From Caballeronia sp. NK8 (GTDB lineage: Bacteria > Pseudomonadota > Gammaproteobacteria > Burkholderiales > Burkholderiaceae): DNA of 64,000 bases. The notes beneath the pieces are model-generated. The model saw only the letters and a program-made list of their open reading frames with translations, was not told the DNA's origin and searched no databases. The stretch lies in assembly GCF_018408855.1 (NCBI RefSeq), contig NZ_AP024324.1, positions 558,001-622,000 on the forward strand, read 5' to 3'. This document shows positions 53,437-62,638 of the stretch, piece after piece. Position 1 is the first letter of the stretch, and each line of letters opens with the position of its first letter. The position numbers were made by a program, and so were the translations under genes.

Positions 53437-54735
53437 TCAACCGTGAGCGGCCGGCGCAAGTTGCGCGATGTCGACGGGCTTGCTCGACGAGCGAATGACG
53501 CGCATCACGACCCATGCGATGAGATAAGCCGAACCGCAGACGACGAACAGCACGTTGTAGCCGGCGTCGATGTGACCGAGCACCTTGAAATGGTCCAGCA
53601 CCGCACCGACGACGAGCGGGAACAGCGTCGCACCCAGCGCACCGGCCAGGCCGCCGATCCCGACGACCGAACCGACTGCCGCCTTCGGAAACATGTCGGA
53701 AGCGGTCGTGAAGAGGTTCGCCGACCATGCCTGATGCGAAGCCGCCGCGAGGCTCAGAAGGCCGACCATCGCCCACATGTTCTCGATGAACGGCGAGAAC
53801 GCAATCGGCATCACGAGAAACGCAAAGACCAGCATGGTGGTTTGTCGCGCCTTCGTCACGGACCAGCCGCGCTGAATCAGCCTGGACGAGATGAAACCAC
53901 CGCCGATGCTGCCGATCGAGGTCGAGACGTACACGATCACCAGCGGCAGGCCGAGGTTCTTCAGATCGAGGTGGAAGCGCGAATTGAAGTACGAAGGCAG
54001 CCAGAAGAGCATGAACCACCAGATCGGGTCGGTCAGAAGCTTGCCTGCGAAGAATGCCCACGTCGGGCGCAGCTTGAGCAAGGTGAACCAGCTCACCTTT
54101 TGCGTCGCGGGAGCGGGCGCTGAATCCTCGCTGATGTAGCCGAGCTCCGCCTCGTTGACCTTCGCGTGTTTCGCCGGCACCTGATACATGAAGTACCAGA
54201 AGCCCAGCCAGATAAAGCCCGTCAGTCCGGTGACGAAGAACGCAGCCTCCCAGCCATACGTTGCGGCGAGCCATGGAACGGTCGCCGGTGCCGCCACCGC
54301 GCCGATGCTGGTACCGGAGGTGAGAATACCCACCGCGAGCGCTTGCTCCTTGCGCGGGAACCACTCCGACACGCTCTTCACCGCGCAAGGGAAGCTGCCG
54401 GACTCAGAGATGCCAAGCAGGGCACGCATGACGCCGAAGCCCATCGTGCTGCGCACGAGCGCATGGCCGCATGCGGCGATGCTCCACACCAGCACGCACA
54501 CGCCGTAGCCGATCTTGACGCCGAACTTGTCGACCATCTTTCCGGACAACACCATGCCGATTGCATAACACGCGGTGAACACCATGACGATGTAGCTGTA
54601 CTGTGTCTCGGTCCAGTTGAACGTGACGGCAAGCTCGGGCTTGAGCAGTCCCAACACCTGACGGTCGAGGTAATTGATCGTGGTTGCGAAGAAAAGCAGC
54701 GCGCAGATGCGCCACCGGATAGCTGTACGGTCCAT
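53437..54735 (-). CDS. MFS transporter, anion:cation symporter (ACS) family
   Basis: A 432-residue carrier with about 12 helices. RICALLFFATTINYLDRQVLGLLKPEL at the start and GISESGSFPCAVKSVSEWFPRKEQALAVG (around residues 105-133) are typical of the hexuronate/galactonate/phthalate ACS group. The ATG at 54735 has a GGAG upstream; earlier frames lack transporter features. It is the last gene of the leftward CoA-transferase operon, 50 nt after the hydratase, and probably imports a sugar acid or other organic anion degraded by the TetR-controlled genes. Confidence 0.88.
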   Translation of the reverse strand: MDRTAIRWRICALLFFATTINYLDRQVLGLLKPELAVTFNWTETQYSYIVMVFTACYAIGMVLSGKMVDKFGVKIGYGVCVLVWSIAACGHALVRSTMGFGVMRALLGISESGSFPCAVKSVSEWFPRKEQALAVGILTSGTSIGAVAAPATVPWLAATYGWEAAFFVTGLTGFIWLGFWYFMYQVPAKHAKVNEAELGYISEDSAPAPATQKVSWFTLLKLRPTWAFFAGKLLTDPIWWFMLFWLPSYFNSRFHLDLKNLGLPLVIVYVSTSIGSIGGGFISSRLIQRGWSVTKARQTTMLVFAFLVMPIAFSPFIENMWAMVGLLSLAAASHQAWSANLFTTASDMFPKAAVGSVVGIGGLAGALGATLFPLVVGAVLDHFKVLGHIDAGYNVLFVVCGSAYLIAWVVMRVIRSSSKPVDIAQLAPAAHG

Positions 54736-54785: not shown

Positions 54786-55556
54786 TTACCGGAAAAATGC
54801 GGGGCGTTTCTCGCGAAATGCCGCGACGCCTTCGATTGCATCGGGGGACGCCTTGCACACCGATGCGGCGAGTTCGTGAGCGTATTCGTGCTGGCCCGTC
54901 TCCATCATCCGAACGAGCCGCTTACCGACTGACAGCGAAGTCCTCGATCGCTTGATGAGCGTTGCGCAGATTGCGTCGACGCGGCCGCGCAACTGATCCG
55001 CTTCGACGGCCTCGTTGATCACGCCCCATGCAGCGGCGGTTTCGGCGGAGATCGGTTCACCGAGAAGAATCAACTCACGCGTGCGCGTCGCGCCGACGAG
55101 TTCGGAAAGCCGCGAGCAGCCCATCCATCCGGGGATGGCGCCCACCGACGCTTCAGGAAAGCCGACCGTTGCCTGTTTGCTTGCGTAGCGGAGATCGCAC
55201 GTCAGCGCGAGTTCGAATCCGCCGCCGAGCGCGCTGGCGGAAAGAACAGCGATCGTCGGTTTGTCGAGTTCGGCGATGCGACGGAACACGCGGTTGCCTT
55301 CGCGAATGAAGCGCGTGCCCATCTTCTGCGGATCGATATCGCCCCACTCGTTGATATCCGCGCCGCTGCAAAAGAAGCGCGGACTCGCGGTTTCGATTTT
55401 CAGCACGCGGATTTCATCATTGCGCTCGACGTCCGTCACGGCGCGTTCAATGTCATCCAGCATCTGCAACGTCAACGCGTTATGACGCGATACGCGGTTG
55501 AGCGTAATCGTGGCGACGCCACCTTTGGCCTCGTAGAGAATGTCGGTGTCGGACAT
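54786..55556 (-). CDS. Enoyl-CoA hydratase/isomerase family protein
   Basis: A 256-residue crotonase-fold protein. FFCSGADINEW (around residues 61-71) and ASALGGGFELALTCDLRYAS (around 102-121) form the CoA and oxyanion site, with a glutamate in GGGFELAL and another in FPEASVGAIPG. The usual GGTQRL after IPG reads as WMGCSRL here, a small departure from typical hydratases. It lies 14 nt after the CoA-transferase gene, so it acts on the CoA ester made there: hydration, isomerisation or carbon-carbon cleavage are all possible. Confidence 0.87.
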   Translation of the reverse strand: MSDTDILYEAKGGVATITLNRVSRHNALTLQMLDDIERAVTDVERNDEIRVLKIETASPRFFCSGADINEWGDIDPQKMGTRFIREGNRVFRRIAELDKPTIAVLSASALGGGFELALTCDLRYASKQATVGFPEASVGAIPGWMGCSRLSELVGATRTRELILLGEPISAETAAAWGVINEAVEADQLRGRVDAICATLIKRSRTSLSVGKRLVRMMETGQHEYAHELAASVCKASPDAIEGVAAFREKRPAFFR

Positions 55557-55570
55557 GTAAAACCTCTTTG

Positions 55571-57079
55571 TCAGTGAGCCGCAGCGGCTTCGAGCAGGCG
55601 CTCGTCGATGAGCGGCGTGAACTCCATGCGCGAGAGCACATCGCGGTGCATGTCGACGCCCTTCGCCACTTCGACGAGGCACACGCCGAGCGCATCGAGC
55701 CTGAACACCGCGCGCTCGGTGATATAGAAAACTTCCTTTCCGTCCAGACGCGCCTGCACGCCGCTGAACGTCACGTGCCGCACCTTTTTCACGGCCTTCG
55801 GCACGGATCCCGGCGAGAGAATGTCGAGCGCGTCGCCTTTGCGTTCCACACGCAAGCCCTTGGCCTCGAACGCGCCGCAGAACACCAGTTTTTTCGCGCC
55901 CTGCGCGATATCCATGAATCCGCCCGGCCCGACGACCGTCGAGCCGAGCTTCGACACGTTCACGTTGCCTTCTTCGTCGAACTCGCCCATGCCGAGGAAG
56001 GTCACGTCGATACCGCCGCCGCTATACCAGTCGAACTGATCGACGCTCGGCATGATGGCGTCGGCGTTGCGCGCGGTGCCGAACATCGAGCCGTCGAGCA
56101 TCGAGCCGCGGTGGACGCCCTGCTCGACAGAACCCCAATACTCGTCGCCGCGACCTTGCGAGGCGAGGACGGCCGGAATCGCGCCCGGAAAGCCGAAGCC
56201 GAAGTTCACGGATTGATCGATGCCAAGCTCCTGGGCCGCGCGCTCGGCCACGATGAGGCGCATGCCATCGGGCATCTCGACATCGGGTGTCTCGCCGAGC
56301 GCTTCGCCGCTCAACGTGGCGTCGTACTCGCTGATCTGGCACTGGCGCTGAGCCGGGGTCTCGACAGTGAAATCGACCATCACGCCAGGCACACGAACCA
56401 GACGAGCGGGCACGTGCAGACGCGGCCGCGATTTGACCTGCGCGATGACCTTGCCGCCGCTGTTGTGCGCGGCCAGCGCGACGGCATAGATGTCGAGGTC
56501 CGCCGGTTCATGACGGGTCGAGAGATTGCCCCTGTCGTCCGCGGACGACGCCATGACGATCGAGAAGTCGATCTTGAAGGGCTTGTAGCGCAGGAATTCC
56601 GTGCCGTCGATTTCGATCAGCTCGACGAGATCTTCGGTGGTGACGTCGTTCAGCTTGCCGCCGTCCAGACGTGGATCGACGAAGGTTCTCAGGCCGACGC
56701 GCGTAATCACGCCCGGCCGGCCCGCGCCGATTTCGCGGAACAAGGTCGCAATCACACCGCCCGGGAAACTGTAGCCCTCGATCGCACCGCTTTCGGCCAG
56801 CTTCTGCATCGCCGATGACCAGACCCAGTGGCCGCCGATCACGCGCCTGACCATCCCGGCGTGAGCGAATCTGCCGAGGCCGCTGCCCTGCCCGTCGCCC
56901 ACGCCCAGCGCATGAACGACCGTCAGATTGCGCGGATGGCCGGTTTCGAGAAATCGCGCTTCGATCGCAGCGAGGATCGCGTCCGGTTCGAGCAGCCCGC
57001 CGCCCGATCCGGTGATGGCGATCGTCGCACCGTCGAAGATCGAAGCCGCAACGGCTTGCGCACTGGTCCACTTTTTCAC
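55571..57079 (-). CDS. Acyl-CoA:acetate/propionate CoA-transferase (YdiF-like)
   Basis: A 502-residue fused alpha-beta family I CoA-transferase. [26 protein letters not shown] is the start of the alpha half, GGHWVWSSAMQKLAESGAIEGYSFPGGVI the alpha core, and the beta half holds the catalytic Glu319 in SVEQGVHRG. It moves CoA from acetyl- or another acyl-CoA to an organic acid. The start is GTG at 57079 with AGGAGG 4 nt upstream. First gene of a leftward operon whose predicted promoter spacer carries the TetR operator (57107-57124). Confidence 0.9.
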   Translation of the reverse strand: MKKWTSAQAVAASIFDGATIAITGSGGGLLEPDAILAAIEARFLETGHPRNLTVVHALGVGDGQGSGLGRFAHAGMVRRVIGGHWVWSSAMQKLAESGAIEGYSFPGGVIATLFREIGAGRPGVITRVGLRTFVDPRLDGGKLNDVTTEDLVELIEIDGTEFLRYKPFKIDFSIVMASSADDRGNLSTRHEPADLDIYAVALAAHNSGGKVIAQVKSRPRLHVPARLVRVPGVMVDFTVETPAQRQCQISEYDATLSGEALGETPDVEMPDGMRLIVAERAAQELGIDQSVNFGFGFPGAIPAVLASQGRGDEYWGSVEQGVHRGSMLDGSMFGTARNADAIMPSVDQFDWYSGGGIDVTFLGMGEFDEEGNVNVSKLGSTVVGPGGFMDIAQGAKKLVFCGAFEAKGLRVERKGDALDILSPGSVPKAVKKVRHVTFSGVQARLDGKEVFYITERAVFRLDALGVCLVEVAKGVDMHRDVLSRMEFTPLIDERLLEAAAAH

Positions 57080-57102: not shown

Positions 57103-57131
57103 TTAGTACCGAACCGTATCGTTACTTGAAA
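57103..57131 (-). promoter_or_regulatory. Predicted promoter of the CoA-transferase operon
   Basis: On the minus strand TTTCAA (57131-57126), a 17-nt spacer and TACTAA (57108-57103), 24 nt upstream of the GTG. The spacer is almost filled by the inverted repeat at 57107-57124, the usual geometry for TetR-type repression. Confidence 0.5.
57107..57124. promoter_or_regulatory. TetR operator candidate, site A
   Basis: TACCGA-ACCGTA-TCGTTA: inverted repeat with 5 of 6 matched positions. It aligns with site B at 58062-58079, differing at three of 18 positions. Located between the CoA-transferase operon and the tetR gene. Confidence 0.65.
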
Positions 57132-57282
57132 CGAATCGTGGCACAGGCAAAAGCGACGTTCAAGGGAAAAGCGCCTGAAATCGGGTTTACGATGATCGAT
57201 GCGTACAGAGCCGCTCGTACGCCACGATTGCGACGCGATGGCGTTGTCAGTTACCGTTTAACTTTGGATGTGACCCACGAAT

Positions 57283-57963
57283 ATGCAGACCCCAGTCGAA
57301 CCGGGCGGCGAAGTACGCGCTGTCGAGAAGCCCGCGCGTGCCAAGCGGCTGCGCGATCCGATCCAGACGCAAGCCAAAATCCTCACTGCCGCCAAAGCCG
57401 AGTTCGCGAAAGTTGGACTGGGCGGCGCGCGCATCGAGACGATCGCCGAGAAGGCCGGCGTCAACAAGCGGATGATCTACGAGTACTTCAAGGGGAAGGA
57501 AGAGCTGTTCCAGACCGTCCTCGAGGAAATGTGGACCGACATCCGGACCGAGGAAAGAGCGCTCGGCCTCGATAAGCTCGCGCCCGTCGAGGCGATCCGG
57601 GCCTACGTGACGTTCACCTGGAACTATTACCTGAAGAACCCGGAGTTCATGTCGCTCGTGAACAGCGAAAATCTGCACCGGGCCCGGCATGTCAAGAAGT
57701 CGAGACGGTTCAGCGAACTGCATCGCGGCTTCGTCAACATGCTGCAGCATATTCTCGAGCGAGGCGTAGCCTCCGGCGACTTCAAGGCGGGCGTCGATGC
57801 AAGCCAGTTGCACCTGACCATCGCCGCGCTGGGTTATTACTATTTGACCAATCGCTTCACCGGCGAAGTCATCTTCGGCTTCGATTTCGTCTCGAAGGAA
57901 GCGCTTCAGAAACGTCTCGACTTCAATCTCGAAACAGTCTTCAGCCTGCTACGCCCGAGCTGA
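57283..57963 (+). CDS. TetR-family transcriptional repressor
   Basis: A 226-residue regulator. The helix-turn-helix is ILTAAKAEFAKVGLGGARIETIAEKAGVNKRMIYEYFKGKEELF (residues around 29-72); the ligand domain follows with a TetR_C-like pattern (LTIAALGYYYLTNRF). An arginine/lysine-rich tail of about 25 residues precedes the domain. It lies between two divergent catabolic operons that each carry a near-identical 18-bp inverted repeat in their promoters, so it is the probable shared repressor. A strong terminator follows. Confidence 0.9.
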   Translation: MQTPVEPGGEVRAVEKPARAKRLRDPIQTQAKILTAAKAEFAKVGLGGARIETIAEKAGVNKRMIYEYFKGKEELFQTVLEEMWTDIRTEERALGLDKLAPVEAIRAYVTFTWNYYLKNPEFMSLVNSENLHRARHVKKSRRFSELHRGFVNMLQHILERGVASGDFKAGVDASQLHLTIAALGYYYLTNRFTGEVIFGFDFVSKEALQKRLDFNLETVFSLLRPS

Positions 57964-57999
57964 TCGCGCCGCGCTCCTCTCTTCTTCGCTCCATCGCAC

Positions 58000-58035
58000 A
58001 AGGGTTTTCCGCTTCATAGGGGAAAACCCTTTTTT
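58000..58035 (+). terminator. Rho-independent terminator after tetR
   Basis: AGGGTTTTCC (58001-58010), 10-nt loop, GGAAAACCCT (58021-58030), directly followed by TTTTT; an A before and T after extend the stem to 11. This is the clearest intrinsic terminator in the window, 37 nt after the tetR stop. Confidence 0.88.
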
Positions 58036-58062
58036 GACAGCGCGTTTCGACAGGTATTAAAT
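58034..58062 (+). promoter_or_regulatory. Predicted promoter of the SDR/DUF993 operon
   Basis: TTGACA (58034-58039), a perfect -35 box, 17-nt spacer, TTAAAT (58057-58062) as -10. It starts inside the terminator T-run. The operator at 58062-58079 covers the expected transcription start. Confidence 0.55.
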
Positions 58063-58079
58063 AACGAAACGGATCGTTA
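58062..58079. promoter_or_regulatory. TetR operator candidate, site B
   Basis: TAACGA-AACGGA-TCGTTA: perfect 6-bp inverted repeat with 6-nt centre. It shares 15 of 18 bases with site A, and the CTT following TCGTTA is also conserved. It lies just downstream of the -10 box of the SDR operon. Confidence 0.7.
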
Positions 58080-58097
58080 CTTAGGAAGAGATGAAAC

Positions 58098-58868
58098 ATG
58101 GAACAACGCCAGGTCGCGCTGGTTACGGGCGCTCGTCGCGGCATCGGTCGGGCGATCGCGCTCGAACTTGCCAATGCCGGGTTCGACATCGCCATCACGG
58201 ACGTCGAGACATCGGAGGAGTTGGTCGCCACGCGCGCCGATATCGAACGCGTCGGTGTGAAGTGCGTGGCGCTGACATCGAATCTCGCGGACATTGCGCA
58301 TCACGACGCGCTGTTTCAGGCGGTCGACGATGCGCTCGGCCCCGTCACCTGCCTGGTCAACAACGCTGGCGTGTCCGTCATGTCGCGCGGCGATCTGCTC
58401 GACGTCACGCCAGAAAGCTACGACCGATGCCTCAACGTCAACACGCGAGGCACCTTCTTCCTGATGCAGGCATTCGGCCGGCGTGTCGCGCGGGCGCGGC
58501 AGTCGGCGGTCAATCGCTCGATCATCACGATCACCTCATCCAACGCCGTGGCGGCGTCGCCACAGCGCAGCGAATATTGCGTGTCGAAGGCAGGGCTGTC
58601 GATGGCCACTACCCTGTTCGGTCTGCGGCTGGCTGAACTGGGCGTCAGCGTATTCGAAGTACAGCCGGGCCTGATCGAAACCGAAATGACCGCGCCATCG
58701 AAGGCGCGTTACGACGCGCTCATGGAGGACGGGTTGACCGCCATCAAACGATGGGGCAAGCCGGATGAAGTCGCGCTTACGGTACGCACGCTCGCAACGG
58801 GTGGTCTGCCGTTCAGCGTGGGTCAGGCGATCCGCGTCGATGGCGGTCTTCTTGTTTCCAAATACTGA
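58098..58868 (+). CDS. Short-chain dehydrogenase/reductase
   Basis: A 256-residue NAD(P)-dependent oxidoreductase. VTGARRGIGRAIALELA (around residues 9-25) is the cofactor motif, NNAGVS the structural motif, and the catalytic set is Ser in ITSSNA and YxxxK in YCVSK (around 157-161). QPGLIETEMT follows. ADVETSEE-like Asp after the second strand (ITDVETS) favours NAD. AGGAAGAG precedes the ATG. First gene of the rightward TetR-controlled operon; it may oxidise a sugar- or cyclitol-type alcohol before the aldolase-like step. Confidence 0.9.
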   Translation: MEQRQVALVTGARRGIGRAIALELANAGFDIAITDVETSEELVATRADIERVGVKCVALTSNLADIAHHDALFQAVDDALGPVTCLVNNAGVSVMSRGDLLDVTPESYDRCLNVNTRGTFFLMQAFGRRVARARQSAVNRSIITITSSNAVAASPQRSEYCVSKAGLSMATTLFGLRLAELGVSVFEVQPGLIETEMTAPSKARYDALMEDGLTAIKRWGKPDEVALTVRTLATGGLPFSVGQAIRVDGGLLVSKY

Positions 58869-58884
58869 TTTCGAGATTCGAACT

Positions 58885-60048
58885 ATGCAAATCAAGCTTC
58901 CCACCCTGGACGGCGCGCTCGCCGACTACCGTCTGACCGGCACGCCCTTGCAGGTCGTCAAGCCCGCGACGGCGTTCAACCGCATCGCCTACTCGGCGGC
59001 GCACGTGGTCGCCGATCCGCTGCGTAGCGGCGAACTCGGACAAGCCTGCGCGATCGACTGGGACCGGACCATCGAATATCGCCGCTATCTTCTGGAGCAA
59101 GGTCTGGGGATCGCGGAGGCGATGGATACGGCGCAACGCGGCATGGGCCTGTCGTGGGACTCGGCGAAAGAGCTGATCGTCCGCACGCTGAATGAAACGC
59201 GCGACATTCCCGGCGCGTCGATCGCATCGGGCTGCGGCACGGATCACTTGCCGGTCAACGACGCGCGCTCGTGCGACGATGTCATCAAGGCCTACCTGAC
59301 GCAAATCGAGAGCGTCCAGCGCGCGGGCGGCCAGATCATCCTGATGGCGAGCCGCGCCCTCGCGCGCGTGGCCAGGGATGCGAACGACTACATTCGTGTC
59401 TATCGCGAAGTGCTGGCCGCGTGCGACAAGCCGGTCATTCTTCACTGGCTCGGCGAGGCATTCGATCCCGAACTGGCCGGATACTGGGGTCATGCCGACT
59501 TCGAAAACGCGGCCAAGGTCTGTCTCGAAGTCATCGTCGCGAATGAAGCGAAAGTCGATGGCATCAAGATTTCGCTGCTGGATGACGCGAAGGAAATCGC
59601 CTTCCGCCGACGTCTTCCTGCGTCCGTGAAGATGTACACCGGCGACGACTTCAACTACCCGGTGCTCATCGCCGGCGATGAATTCGGTTACTCGCACGCG
59701 CTGCTCGGCATCTTCGATGCGATCGCGCCTGCGGCGTCACAGGCGTTGTCCGCGCTCGCCGCGAACGATCTCGCTCGCTATGACGAGCTGCTCGCGCCAA
59801 CGGTGCCGCTGTCGCGCCATATCTTTCGCGCGCCGACACAGTACTACAAGACCGGAGTCGTCTTCCTCGCCTATCTGAACGGATTCCAGCCGCACTTCTT
59901 CATGCTCGGCGGCCATCATGGCATGAGGCCGCCTGCCTATCTGGCGGAAGTCTTCCGGCTCGCCGATCAGGCGAATCTGCTCAAGGATCCCGAGTTGGCC
60001 GTCAGCCGCATGCGAGCGGTCATGACCACGCTCGGATGCACGCAATGA
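58885..60048 (+). CDS. DUF993 protein, aldolase-like TIM barrel
   Basis: A 387-residue protein of the DUF993 family, related to dihydrodipicolinate synthase-type class I aldolases. GCGTDHLP (around residues 113-120), ILMASRALARVA, VILHWLGEAFDPELAGYW and DGIKISLLDD (around 229-238, with a lysine in the strand where aldolases form the Schiff base) are the most conserved parts I can see. The reaction is not established. The start at 58885 is the one that gives the family N-terminus. The stop overlaps the next gene start as ATGA. It probably performs carbon-carbon cleavage in this operon. Confidence 0.82.
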   Translation: MQIKLPTLDGALADYRLTGTPLQVVKPATAFNRIAYSAAHVVADPLRSGELGQACAIDWDRTIEYRRYLLEQGLGIAEAMDTAQRGMGLSWDSAKELIVRTLNETRDIPGASIASGCGTDHLPVNDARSCDDVIKAYLTQIESVQRAGGQIILMASRALARVARDANDYIRVYREVLAACDKPVILHWLGEAFDPELAGYWGHADFENAAKVCLEVIVANEAKVDGIKISLLDDAKEIAFRRRLPASVKMYTGDDFNYPVLIAGDEFGYSHALLGIFDAIAPAASQALSALAANDLARYDELLAPTVPLSRHIFRAPTQYYKTGVVFLAYLNGFQPHFFMLGGHHGMRPPAYLAEVFRLADQANLLKDPELAVSRMRAVMTTLGCTQ

Positions 60049-60896
60049 TCATGGAACCTCTTCACCCCGCCCGTTGTTCCATCAACACCGCGACACTCGG
60101 ACATCGCGAAACCATCGACGTGACGATCGACCGGATCGCCAAAGCGGGGTTCGGTGGACTGGCACCGTGGCGTCATGAAGTCGAAACGGCCGGCGTGAGC
60201 AGGATCGCCAGGCAGATTCGTGCGCTGGAACTCAAGGTCAGCGGGTACTGTCGGTCGACGTACTTCCCTGCCGCGACGCAGGCGCAGCGTCTGGTCAACA
60301 TTCAGTCGAACGTCCGGGCGCTGAACGACGCGGCTGAACTGGGCGCCGAATGCTTCGTGATGGTGGTAGGCGGCCTGCCTGAAGGAAGCCGCGACCTGTC
60401 GGCGGCGCGCACGCAGGTACGGGACGGCATCGGCGCATTGCTTGAAGCGGCGCGCAAGCTGGGCGTCCGCCTGGCGATCGAACCGCTGCATCCGATGTAT
60501 GCGGGCGAAAGGTCGGTGATCAACACGATCGATCAGGCGAACGTCATCGCGCGCGAACTCGATCCGCATAACGATGGCTTCCTCGGAATTGCTGTCGACG
60601 TGTATCACTGCTGGTGGGACCCGCGGCTGGAAGCGGCGGTCTCTTCGATCGGCAAGGACGATCGCATTTTTGCGTACCACGTCTCCGACTGGCTCGTACC
60701 GACGAACGATCTGTTGCTCGATCGCGGCATGATGGGCGATGGCGTGATCGACCTGCGGGACTTCCGGCGAAGCGTCGAAAATGCGGGCTATGCCGGCATG
60801 GTCGAAGTCGAGATCTTTTCGCGCGACAACTGGTGGAAACGGCCACCCGATCAGGTCCTGCAGACGTGCGCCGCGCGCTTGCAATCGGTCTGCTGA
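60045..60896 (+). CDS. Sugar phosphate isomerase/epimerase family TIM barrel
   Basis: A 283-residue xylose-isomerase-like protein. CSINTATLGHR at the start, LAIEPLHPMYAGERSVINT (around residues 142-160) with a metal-binding Glu, GIAVDVYHCWWDP with Asp-His, and VEVEIFSRDNWW near the end with the last Glu: the metal ligands of the family are present. Members isomerise or epimerise sugars, keto-sugars or inosose-like compounds. The ATG at 60045 overlaps the DUF993 stop (ATGA); ATGs at 60036 and 60051 are alternatives. Last gene of the rightward operon. Confidence 0.85.
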   Translation: MIMEPLHPARCSINTATLGHRETIDVTIDRIAKAGFGGLAPWRHEVETAGVSRIARQIRALELKVSGYCRSTYFPAATQAQRLVNIQSNVRALNDAAELGAECFVMVVGGLPEGSRDLSAARTQVRDGIGALLEAARKLGVRLAIEPLHPMYAGERSVINTIDQANVIARELDPHNDGFLGIAVDVYHCWWDPRLEAAVSSIGKDDRIFAYHVSDWLVPTNDLLLDRGMMGDGVIDLRDFRRSVENAGYAGMVEVEIFSRDNWWKRPPDQVLQTCAARLQSVC

Positions 60897-60933: not shown

Positions 60934-60950
60934 TAGTCCGCTCCGGACTA
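60934..60950. other. Short palindrome at the end of the GntR gene
   Basis: TAGTCCG-CTC-CGGACTA, a 7-bp perfect stem between the convergent TIM-barrel and GntR genes, overlapping the GntR stop codon. Possibly a weak bidirectional terminator; no T-run. Confidence 0.35.
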
Positions 60951-61658
60951 GCGCAGGAAGATCTCTTCAAGGTCCGCTTCGTCCTCTGTCGAGTCAAGAT
61001 CCAACGAACCTTCGATGTGGTCGAGATGCTCGAGCATGATCTTCGCGGCCGTTTCGCCATCGCCTTGATTCAAGGCAACCACGATACGTTCATGTTCGTC
61101 GGCTCGGCAGCTCGCGACGATCGGTGCGTTATACAGAAGAATGACCAGGCATGTCAGGGTGGAAAGCTCGCGCAAGCTGCGGGTGAATGACGAGTTACCG
61201 GCGAGCGCTGCCGCAAGGTTATGAAACTCTCCGGACAAGCGGATGATCGCGCGCTTGTCTTCGACTTTACGAGCGTTAATCTCCTTATCCAGATGCTCCT
61301 TCAATGCCGCCCGCTTCTCGTCGGTCATGCTATTGGCCAGACGGCGCATGACAGCGGGCTCGATCAGTCTTCGGGCCTCGAATACATCCCGAGCCTGTTC
61401 CACCGAAGGCTTTGCGACGAACCAGCCTCGCTTCGGAAAAACCTCGACGATTTGCTCATAGGCCAGCTTGCTCAGTGCTTCCCGCACCCGCGCGCGACTG
61501 GCCTTGAAGATCGAAGCAAGGCGCTCCTCAGCCAGCTTCGTTCCCGGTGTCAGCCGATGCTCCAGGATCGCAAGGTAGATTCGCTCGTAGATTTCGTCGC
61601 TCGTGCTGTCCGTCGACTGCGTATCGTTGAGAAGAGGAAGAACTGAATTCTTGGGCAT
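60948..61658 (-). CDS. GntR-family regulator, FCD (FadR) type
   Basis: A 236-residue regulator. The winged helix has IYERIYLAILEHRLTPGTKLAEERLASIFKASRARVREALSKL (residues around 23-65), followed by an all-helical FCD domain with EARRLIEPAVMRRLA and the metal/ligand-site histidines in SGEFHNLAAALAGN and RADEHERIVVAL. FCD regulators often sense organic acids. It lies 59 nt downstream of the deacetylase gene on the same strand, so it probably is the last gene of that operon and its autoregulator. I start at 61658 (MPKNSVLPLL). Confidence 0.88.
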   Translation of the reverse strand: MPKNSVLPLLNDTQSTDSTSDEIYERIYLAILEHRLTPGTKLAEERLASIFKASRARVREALSKLAYEQIVEVFPKRGWFVAKPSVEQARDVFEARRLIEPAVMRRLANSMTDEKRAALKEHLDKEINARKVEDKRAIIRLSGEFHNLAAALAGNSSFTRSLRELSTLTCLVILLYNAPIVASCRADEHERIVVALNQGDGETAAKIMLEHLDHIEGSLDLDSTEDEADLEEIFLR

Positions 61659-61717
61659 GTTGGAAAGCCTTTCTGGACGCTCGGGGGGGCGCCTCGGAGT
61701 TGCTTGCGTGAGGGTTG

Positions 61718-62638
61718 TCACACACCGTGATAAGGATGCTCTTTGATCCAATGGCGAGCAATATCGATCCGCCGGGCAAACCAGACATCCTCGTGACTCT
61801 TCACATAGTCGAGGAATCGTTCGAGACCGGCGGCCCTCGCCGGATGCCCGATCAGCCTGAGATGAAGGCCGACTGACATCATCTTCGGCGTCTTCGCTCC
61901 TTCCTTGTACAGCATGTCGAATGCGTCTTTCATGAAATCGAACCACTGTTGCGACGTGCCCGTGGTACCCGCATATTGTCCGTCATTTGTCGTCAGCGAA
62001 TACGGAATGACCAGGTGCGGCGTCTCGCCTACCGTGGTCCAGAACGGAAGTTCGTCGCCGTAGTAGTCGGAGTCGTACAGAAAGCCGCCGTGCTCGACCA
62101 GCAGACGCCTTGTATTCACCGATGGCGAATAGCGGCAATACCACCCTTCGGGCGGCCGGCCGATTGTACGCGTGAGCGACTCGACGGCCATCCGGATGTG
62201 CTGCCGCTCCTCTTCCGGCGCAAGCCGATAGTGCTGTATCCACCGCCAGCCGTGACTGCAGACGTCGAAGCCCGACGCTCGAATGGCCGCCGCGGCCGAC
62301 GGATTGCGCTCCAGCGCCAGGGCGCACCCGTAAATGGTCGCCGGCAAGTCACGCTCTTGAATTATACGCATGAGCCGCCAGAAGCCTACTCGGCTGCCGT
62401 ACTCGAAAAGCCCTTCCGCCGCCAGGTCCCGACCGACCACGCCCGAATGCAGGCCATGCGATTCGGTGAACCAGGTCTCGCTCTGCGTTTCGCCGTGCTC
62501 GATCGATGGTTCGGAACCTTCCTCGTAGTTCAACACGAGGTTGATTGCGATACGTGCCCCGTTCGGCCAGTTGGCGGAGGGCGGGTTGGCGCCGTAACCC
62601 TCGAAATTGCGTGCGGGTGTCGTGCGATCGTTGCTCAT
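61718..62638 (-). CDS. Polysaccharide deacetylase family protein, PuuE-like
   Basis: A 306-residue NodB-fold hydrolase closely resembling PuuE (cofactor-independent allantoinase). Diagnostic parts are VLNYEEGSEPSIEHG (around residues 35-49), FEYGSRVGFWRLMRI, SHGWRWIQHY and GWYCRYSPSVNTRRLLVEHGGFLYDSDYYGDELPFW. No signal peptide, so cytoplasmic. Allantoinase activity is not certain: no purine catabolic genes adjoin it. Here it sits with an SDR and an NAD epimerase, so an amide or acyl hydrolysis on another substrate is possible. Confidence 0.83.
   Translation of the reverse strand: MSNDRTTPARNFEGYGANPPSANWPNGARIAINLVLNYEEGSEPSIEHGETQSETWFTESHGLHSGVVGRDLAAEGLFEYGSRVGFWRLMRIIQERDLPATIYGCALALERNPSAAAAIRASGFDVCSHGWRWIQHYRLAPEEERQHIRMAVESLTRTIGRPPEGWYCRYSPSVNTRRLLVEHGGFLYDSDYYGDELPFWTTVGETPHLVIPYSLTTNDGQYAGTTGTSQQWFDFMKDAFDMLYKEGAKTPKMMSVGLHLRLIGHPARAAGLERFLDYVKSHEDVWFARRIDIARHWIKEHPYHGV

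Follow-up and report, generated by a model that had tools for sequence, protein, structure and literature searches.

Local repressors of the TetR family with operators at divergent promoters include TetR/tetO, QacR, and RutR. The system described here has in common with these three a TetR_N helix-turn-helix domain joined to a helical ligand domain, a palindromic operator lying over promoter elements, and a regulator encoded beside its predicted targets. It is found in a 64,000-nucleotide stretch of the Caballeronia sp. NK8 genome (hereafter the window; contig NZ_AP024324.1, positions 558,001 to 622,000), where a tetR gene separates two operons that seem to serve the breakdown of sugars or acids, one of which codes for a protein with a DUF993 domain. 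No paper on a TetR two-operator/DUF993 system was found among open-licence PubMed Central titles and abstract beginnings, and the terms DUF993 and PF06187 were absent from the open-licence PubMed Central literature searched. A table row of PMC12542648 gives SMc04132 as an uncharacterised protein.

The regulator and the two flanking operons

The tetR gene (57283..57963, plus strand) codes for a 226-residue protein of the TetR_N + TetR_C_29 architecture, with profile matches to the DNA-binding domain (PF00440, 49.6 bits against a cut-off of 24) and to the all-helical C-terminal ligand/dimer domain (PF17938, 140.6 bits). Its structural model (mean pLDDT 89.3) matches TetR structures, the match with the lowest E-value being RutR (6z1b, TM-score 0.69 on the query); the unassigned TetR protein 3npi gives a TM-score of 0.75. 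RutR also supplies the best NCBIfam model for this protein, but the scores lie far below those of RutR equivalogs (TIGR03613, 52.5 bits versus 368; PRK15008, 49 versus 230), its neighbors are not rut genes, and the RutR operator is presumably different from the motif described below. As to the ligand, the nearest folds are those of RutR (uracil), unassigned proteins such as DIP1788, and FadR (acyl-CoA), which is not decisive. At the sequence level, a palindromic operator is present at the promoters that this TetR would control.

The left operon, on the minus strand, begins with a fused CoA-transferase (CoA_trans, FadX/YdiF-like; 55571..57079, GTG start), followed by an enoyl-CoA hydratase/isomerase family protein (54786..55556, with its start at MSDTDILYEAKGG picked by eye) and an MFS transporter (53437..54735, start likewise by eye), whose nearest NCBIfam model is a D-galactonate transporter (233 bits versus a cut-off of 395). 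The right operon, on the plus strand, is headed by an SDR oxidoreductase (58098..58868; 359.5 bits to the PRK12745 3-ketoacyl-ACP reductase model, cut-off 250), followed by the DUF993 protein (58885..60048) and an AP_endonuc_2/xylose-isomerase-like TIM barrel (60036..60896). The DUF993 protein has the DapA/N-acetylneuraminate-lyase fold, the DapA-type TIM barrel of the dihydrodipicolinate synthase superfamily, at about 14–15% identity to the DapA/N-acetylneuraminate lyase superfamily; it is 57–59% identical to the solved homolog 4dnh, which is titled a hypothetical protein. Its Lys228 is invariant in 13/13 sequences and is, as judged by eye, a candidate for the catalytic Schiff-base lysine. 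Converging on the isomerase gene, the region 60948-62638 codes for a GntR (FCD) regulator and a PuuE-like polysaccharide deacetylase, a pair that was seen beside the cluster in a single one (L007) of the 12 other loci of this gene order. No known RNA element reached its gathering score between 55000 and 61000.

Two palindromic sites flank tetR

Site A (TACCGAACCGTATCGTTA, 57107-57124) and site B (TAACGAAACGGATCGTTA, 58062-58079), read as 18-mers at window coordinates, flank tetR on either side, as a preliminary description of this DNA had placed them. That description further counted 15 of 18 positions shared between the two and saw in both the arms TAACGA-N6-TCGTTA, perfect in B and with one mismatch in A; our recount gives the same figures. 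Across the full 18-mer, 7/9 dyad pairs are matched in B and 6/9 in A, and with the downstream CTT included A and B are identical at 18/21 positions, a value reached by none of 1500 dinucleotide-preserving shuffles of both intergenic stretches (top shuffle 17). The palindromic arms stand as described; the consensus is a longer palindrome, about AATAACGAACCGGTTCGTTATT, and the arms are its outer part.

Taken bare, the palindrome is not enriched: the window has 10 sites with up to three mismatches against 11.1 expected, and the genome 153 with up to two mismatches, fewer than the 172 of the reversed-pattern control. Across all 9.2 Mb the perfect form occurs at B alone, and A is one of four sites with a single mismatch. 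What carries the case is therefore the longer stretch that A and B share, together with the comparison to related loci. A scan with the TetR protein recovered 40 loci, of which 12 (L007-L017, L043) have the gene order of the window, namely MFS, hydratase, CoA-transferase, tetR, SDR, DUF993, and isomerase; together with the window we term these class I. The remaining 28 have a different order or no recognized partner besides tetR. Sites A and B are found in the equivalent gaps of 12/12 other class I loci, whose TetRs are 69–98% identical to that of the window and which include Burkholderia, Trinickia, and Pseudomonas sp. RIT409 (TetR identity 69%), these 13 loci being related and not 13 independent trials. 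With their flanks, the operators (AGTACCGAACCGTATCGTTACTT at 57105..57127 for A; AATAACGAAACGGATCGTTACTT at 58060..58082 for B; neither assigned a strand) occupy the same place in 13/13 loci including the window. Majority identity in the aligned gaps of the 13 sequences is 91% over A and 92% over B, as against 69% and 72% elsewhere, and all 26 class I sites (13 loci with two each) keep CGA-N6-TCG.

The sites are also exclusive to this context. A search of the genome with the ortholog motif TAMCGAAMNGNATCGTTACTT, allowing up to three mismatches, found A and B as the only sites with no mismatch; all other matches, including B on the opposite strand, have three mismatches (control, 1). Hence this zero-mismatch scan yields no members of the regulon in its own genome beyond A and B. 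The exact pattern AMCGAAMYRKWTCGTTACTT occurs in 13 of 398 family genomes, with none for the reversed-pattern control among the matches listed; the species of the 40-locus scan overlap these genomes, so that the two sets of counts are not independent. In 12 of the 13 there are exactly two copies, one on each side of a tetR ortholog at least 77% identical. In the 13th (G123) the single copy is some 1.4 kb away from a TetR homolog of 60% identity, and tripartite tricarboxylate transporter genes follow it at about 240 bp; upstream of the CoA-transferase in this genome are two more sites, which fit the matrix without fitting the exact pattern. At this locus (L140, G123:C37:48000-62000) the exact class I motif precedes TctC-TctB-TctA, and DUF993 is seen as fragments only. 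Of the 13 genomes with an ortholog at least 77% identical, G108 alone is without the exact motif, and it has two variant sites in the equivalent places.

The two sites differ in quality, B scoring above A in 13/13 loci with a matrix made from these same sites, and most loci having a flawed left arm in A, where position 3 is C (but A in L010 and T in L011). Given these scores, it may take different levels of inducer to switch on the two operons. The distance between A and B ranges across loci from 951 to 987 bp and does not hold a constant helical phase; DNA looping between them is accordingly unsupported.

Predicted promoters and conserved elements around the sites

Upstream of the SDR gene, a predicted rightward promoter (58034..58062, plus strand; -35 TTGACA at 58034-58039, 17 nt, -10 TTAAAT at 58057-58062) has the form TTGAC(A/T)-N17-TTAAAT, which is invariant in 13/13 loci. 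The final base of its -10 element is base 1 of the B 18-mer; the claim that B lies at the start of the rightward promoter is supported. If transcription starts 7 nt past the -10 element, near 58069, B would span about -7 to +11. The predicted leftward promoter of the CoA-transferase operon (57135..57163, minus strand; -35 TTGAAC at 57163-57158, 17 nt, -10 CACGAT at 57140-57135) has the same register in 12/13 class I loci, with minus-strand hexamers TTGAA(C/G) or TTGAGG-N17-nAnnAT giving 7–8 of 12 matches at that one fixed register; its -10 element is weak (3/6). In the Pseudomonas locus (L016) the pair is TTGCAA-N17-AAGCAT, shifted by one base (4/12 in the fixed register, 7/12 when shifted). 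The 18-mer of A probably spans positions of about +5 to +22 in the predicted leftward transcript, just past its start point, which is expected near 57128. This departs from the preliminary description, which had put A inside the spacer of the leftward promoter: the conserved TTGAAC-N17-CACGAT pair is instead upstream of A. As that description gave no hexamers, a pair enclosing A was chosen to fit its wording; it gives 3–6 of 12 matches in a fixed register and 5–8 of 12 when floating, varies from locus to locus, and was rejected on conservation. A sigma-70 scan whose rules call for A at position 2 of the -10 element and at least 9/12 matches missed both predicted promoters, TTGACA-N17-TTAAAT being missed despite its 10 matches because of the T at that position.

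A probable intrinsic terminator of tetR (AAGGGTTTTCC, loop, GGAAAACCCTT, T-run; 58000..58035, plus strand), recognized by eye and kept in 10/13 loci, extends into the -35 element of the rightward promoter; our terminator rule, which admits loops of 3–8 only, does not output it. As this element precedes the rightward promoter, the SDR operon is probably transcribed separately from tetR, with transcription of its own.

Between tetR and the leftward promoter is a further conserved element, TCGGGTTTACGAT (57181..57193, no strand assigned), centered about 60 bp upstream of the predicted leftward start. The core GGGTTTACGAT occurs in 12/13 class I loci (not L016), the 13-mer is exact in 10/13, and the latter has a single exact copy genome-wide. 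A second regulator may act there. In L012-L015 a sigma-70-like rightward promoter abuts A (0, 0, 2, and 4 of 400 shuffles equally good), which could make tetR autoregulated in these loci. The corresponding stretch of the window is not significant (57/400 shuffles equally good), and a search for a tetR promoter in the window found none.

Sister clusters with a single operator

About 35 kb to the right of this cluster, the same genome has a paralogous one (L137, G000:C3:642000-660000) with the order ETF, ABC transporter, GMC oxidoreductase, aldehyde dehydrogenase, tetR, CoA-transferase, acyl-CoA dehydrogenase, SDR, DUF993, and isomerase, and with a TetR at 63–65% identity. The same layout is seen, within the reach of the loci, in L018-L022, L038, and L045, and also in L024 minus the ABC-transporter match; we term these clusters class II. 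They resemble the window in their TetR (63–68% identical), CoA-transferase, SDR, DUF993, promoter elements, and related operator. The isomerase is likewise shared by L137, the other class II loci ending too early to show it. They differ in having a sugar-type ABC transporter, a GMC oxidoreductase, an aldehyde dehydrogenase, and an acyl-CoA dehydrogenase, with no MFS or hydratase relatives seen in the stretches read, and in that just one operator is present, flanked by two promoters that face each other.

This operator, located where the CoA-transferase and acyl-CoA dehydrogenase genes diverge, has matrix scores of 14.7–31.1 as against a reversed-sequence maximum of 12.9. Its left flank is the SDR-type promoter of B, and its right flank the facing CoA-transferase promoter of A. 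By eye, the leftward promoter elements are present in 8/9 class II loci, as is a counterpart of TCGGGTTTACGAT with the form GGGTWTACC, L024 being the one without in both cases. In the own-genome cluster the operator is diverged from A and B and is found once genome-wide at up to three mismatches. A second related palindrome (score 18.7) is seen in this cluster between the SBP and GMC genes (L137:5391). A half-operator-like CATCCRGTTACTTCC occurs in the gap between the aldehyde dehydrogenase gene and tetR of L018, L021, L022, and L137, that is, in four of the five loci printed (not in L024), and is a possible autoregulatory site of the class II tetR.

The recognition helix reads A(G/S)VNKRMIYEYF in class I and AK(A/S)NKRMIYHYF in class II, with the exceptions SKANKRM in L038 and AKSNKRMIYEYY in L024. 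Class II sites vary at the CGA-N6-TCG positions. Because L024 has E but no CGA-N6-TCG, the change from G-V to K-A/S fits better than that from E to H, and we regard its tie to the divergence of the operators as a lead.

Related weak palindromes were also noticed between the CoA-transferase and aldo/keto reductase genes of Enterobacterales loci (scores 10.6–17.7; control maximum 12.9): L029, L030, L041, and L046 have two about 100 bp apart, and L028, L031, and L033 one above threshold. All of these loci except L028, where the stretch is masked, have a stronger palindrome (18.2) beside ETF/GMC genes.

Origin of the two-site layout

The flanks of the class II operators probably reveal how the layout of the window arose. 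Over eight loci (L024 was omitted beforehand, its right flank being by eye without A-type elements), the class II right flank matches that of A (mean 26.1; shuffled 14.2, sd 2.4) but not that of B (15.0; shuffled 14.2), and the left flank matches moderately that of B (9.7; shuffled 6.3, sd 1.8), with 7.5 against A (shuffled 6.3). For the own-genome pair, the number of equally good shuffles out of 2000 is 0 for right flank with A, 778 for right with B, 5 for left with B, and 242 for left with A. These comparisons suggest that a two-way operator unit was probably duplicated around tetR. An ancestral unit, with one operator between two facing promoters, one serving the CoA-transferase and one serving acyl-CoA dehydrogenase-SDR-DUF993, would have been copied around the repressor gene, and each duplicate would then have lost one promoter and kept the other. 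The rightward promoter still abutting A in L012-L015 is what duplication of a two-way unit would be expected to leave.

In the TetR tree, a single clade of class I proteins (100/99) lies next to a clade of the Burkholderiaceae class II proteins (100/95), and L024, which is class II-like but from outside Burkholderiaceae, falls outside both. This position fits the single-operator layout being the older one, in a tree that is midpoint-rooted with an uncertain root and with L024 on a long branch, so that the direction of the rearrangement is tentative. The lack of an A-type right flank in L024 counts against the duplication reading outside Burkholderiaceae. The fuller scenario, in which operator duplication, promoter loss, and divergence of operator and helix would have left two switches 35 kb apart without cross-talk, both governing an undescribed CoA-dependent DUF993 pathway, has in our estimate an even chance of being right.

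Regulatory model and alternatives

Conservation, exclusivity, and flanks, all directly legible in the sequence, give strong comparative support to the earlier proposal that the TetR encoded between the two operons governs both as one regulon; a single local regulon for this TetR is very likely, and we are confident that one TetR repressor acts at both A and B. In this model, a TetR dimer would bind a palindrome of about 18–22 bp (consensus AATAACGAACCGGTTCGTTATT) at A and B only. At A it would sit shortly past the point where transcription of the leftward CoA-transferase/enoyl-CoA hydratase/MFS operon begins, at B across the -10 element and transcription start of the rightward SDR/DUF993/isomerase operon, and in both places it would stand in the way of RNA polymerase. 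TetR would be freed by a ligand from the pathway, most likely an imported carboxylate or its CoA ester, so that uptake, CoA activation, and breakdown come on together; that both operons are jointly induced by one ligand, as had been suggested, is a fair inference.

The at best negligible probability that the sites are chance palindromes draws on the chance-level frequency of bare TAACGA-N6-TCGTTA in window and genome with mismatches allowed, and the conservation, exclusivity, and shuffle results refute it. Another regulator could bind A and B in place of this TetR, as the GntR protein (60948-61736) and the class II TetR paralog 35 kb away are both encoded nearby. Yet the GntR gene, about 50 bp past the isomerase gene in the window, recurs in 1/12 other class I loci (L007; the loci extend about 2 kb past the isomerase gene, L008 about 0.6 kb), as against 12/12 for the sites; in 7/13 genomes with a class I tetR at least 77% identical, a second TetR match is absent at E ≤ 1e-50, and six of these seven retain both exact sites, with variants in G108; and the paralog's own operator has diverged as noted above. 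Binding by such a regulator is hence very improbable.

Somewhat less remote, if still unlikely, is that TetR works in practice at one site, the other being a relic of duplication with little effect. The lower score of A in 13/13 loci and its imperfect arm would fit this, but A is conserved like B and retains a promoter context of its own. Some TetR-family proteins are activators, and some protein may activate from the conserved element centered near -60 on the leftward side; both operators, however, overlap or follow the predicted start points, and binding over or just past start points normally blocks transcription. We accordingly hold activation of one or both operons by TetR to be highly doubtful, and repression at both sites remains the preferred reading.

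Relation to known systems

Together these observations delineate a precise predicted regulon, with two operators, two predicted promoters, one regulator, and no further genomic site found, and offer an entry point to the uncharacterized pathway around DUF993. The sister cluster in the same genome provides a natural case of paralogous repressors and operators diverging, and its comparison with the window indicates how one two-way promoter can become two. A switch of this type is ordinary; the interest of the system, which we consider moderate, stems from this probable duplication of a two-way operator unit and from the undescribed pathway. What sets it apart from TetR/tetO, QacR, and RutR is that its predicted targets are two catabolic operons flanking tetR, with one operator for each.
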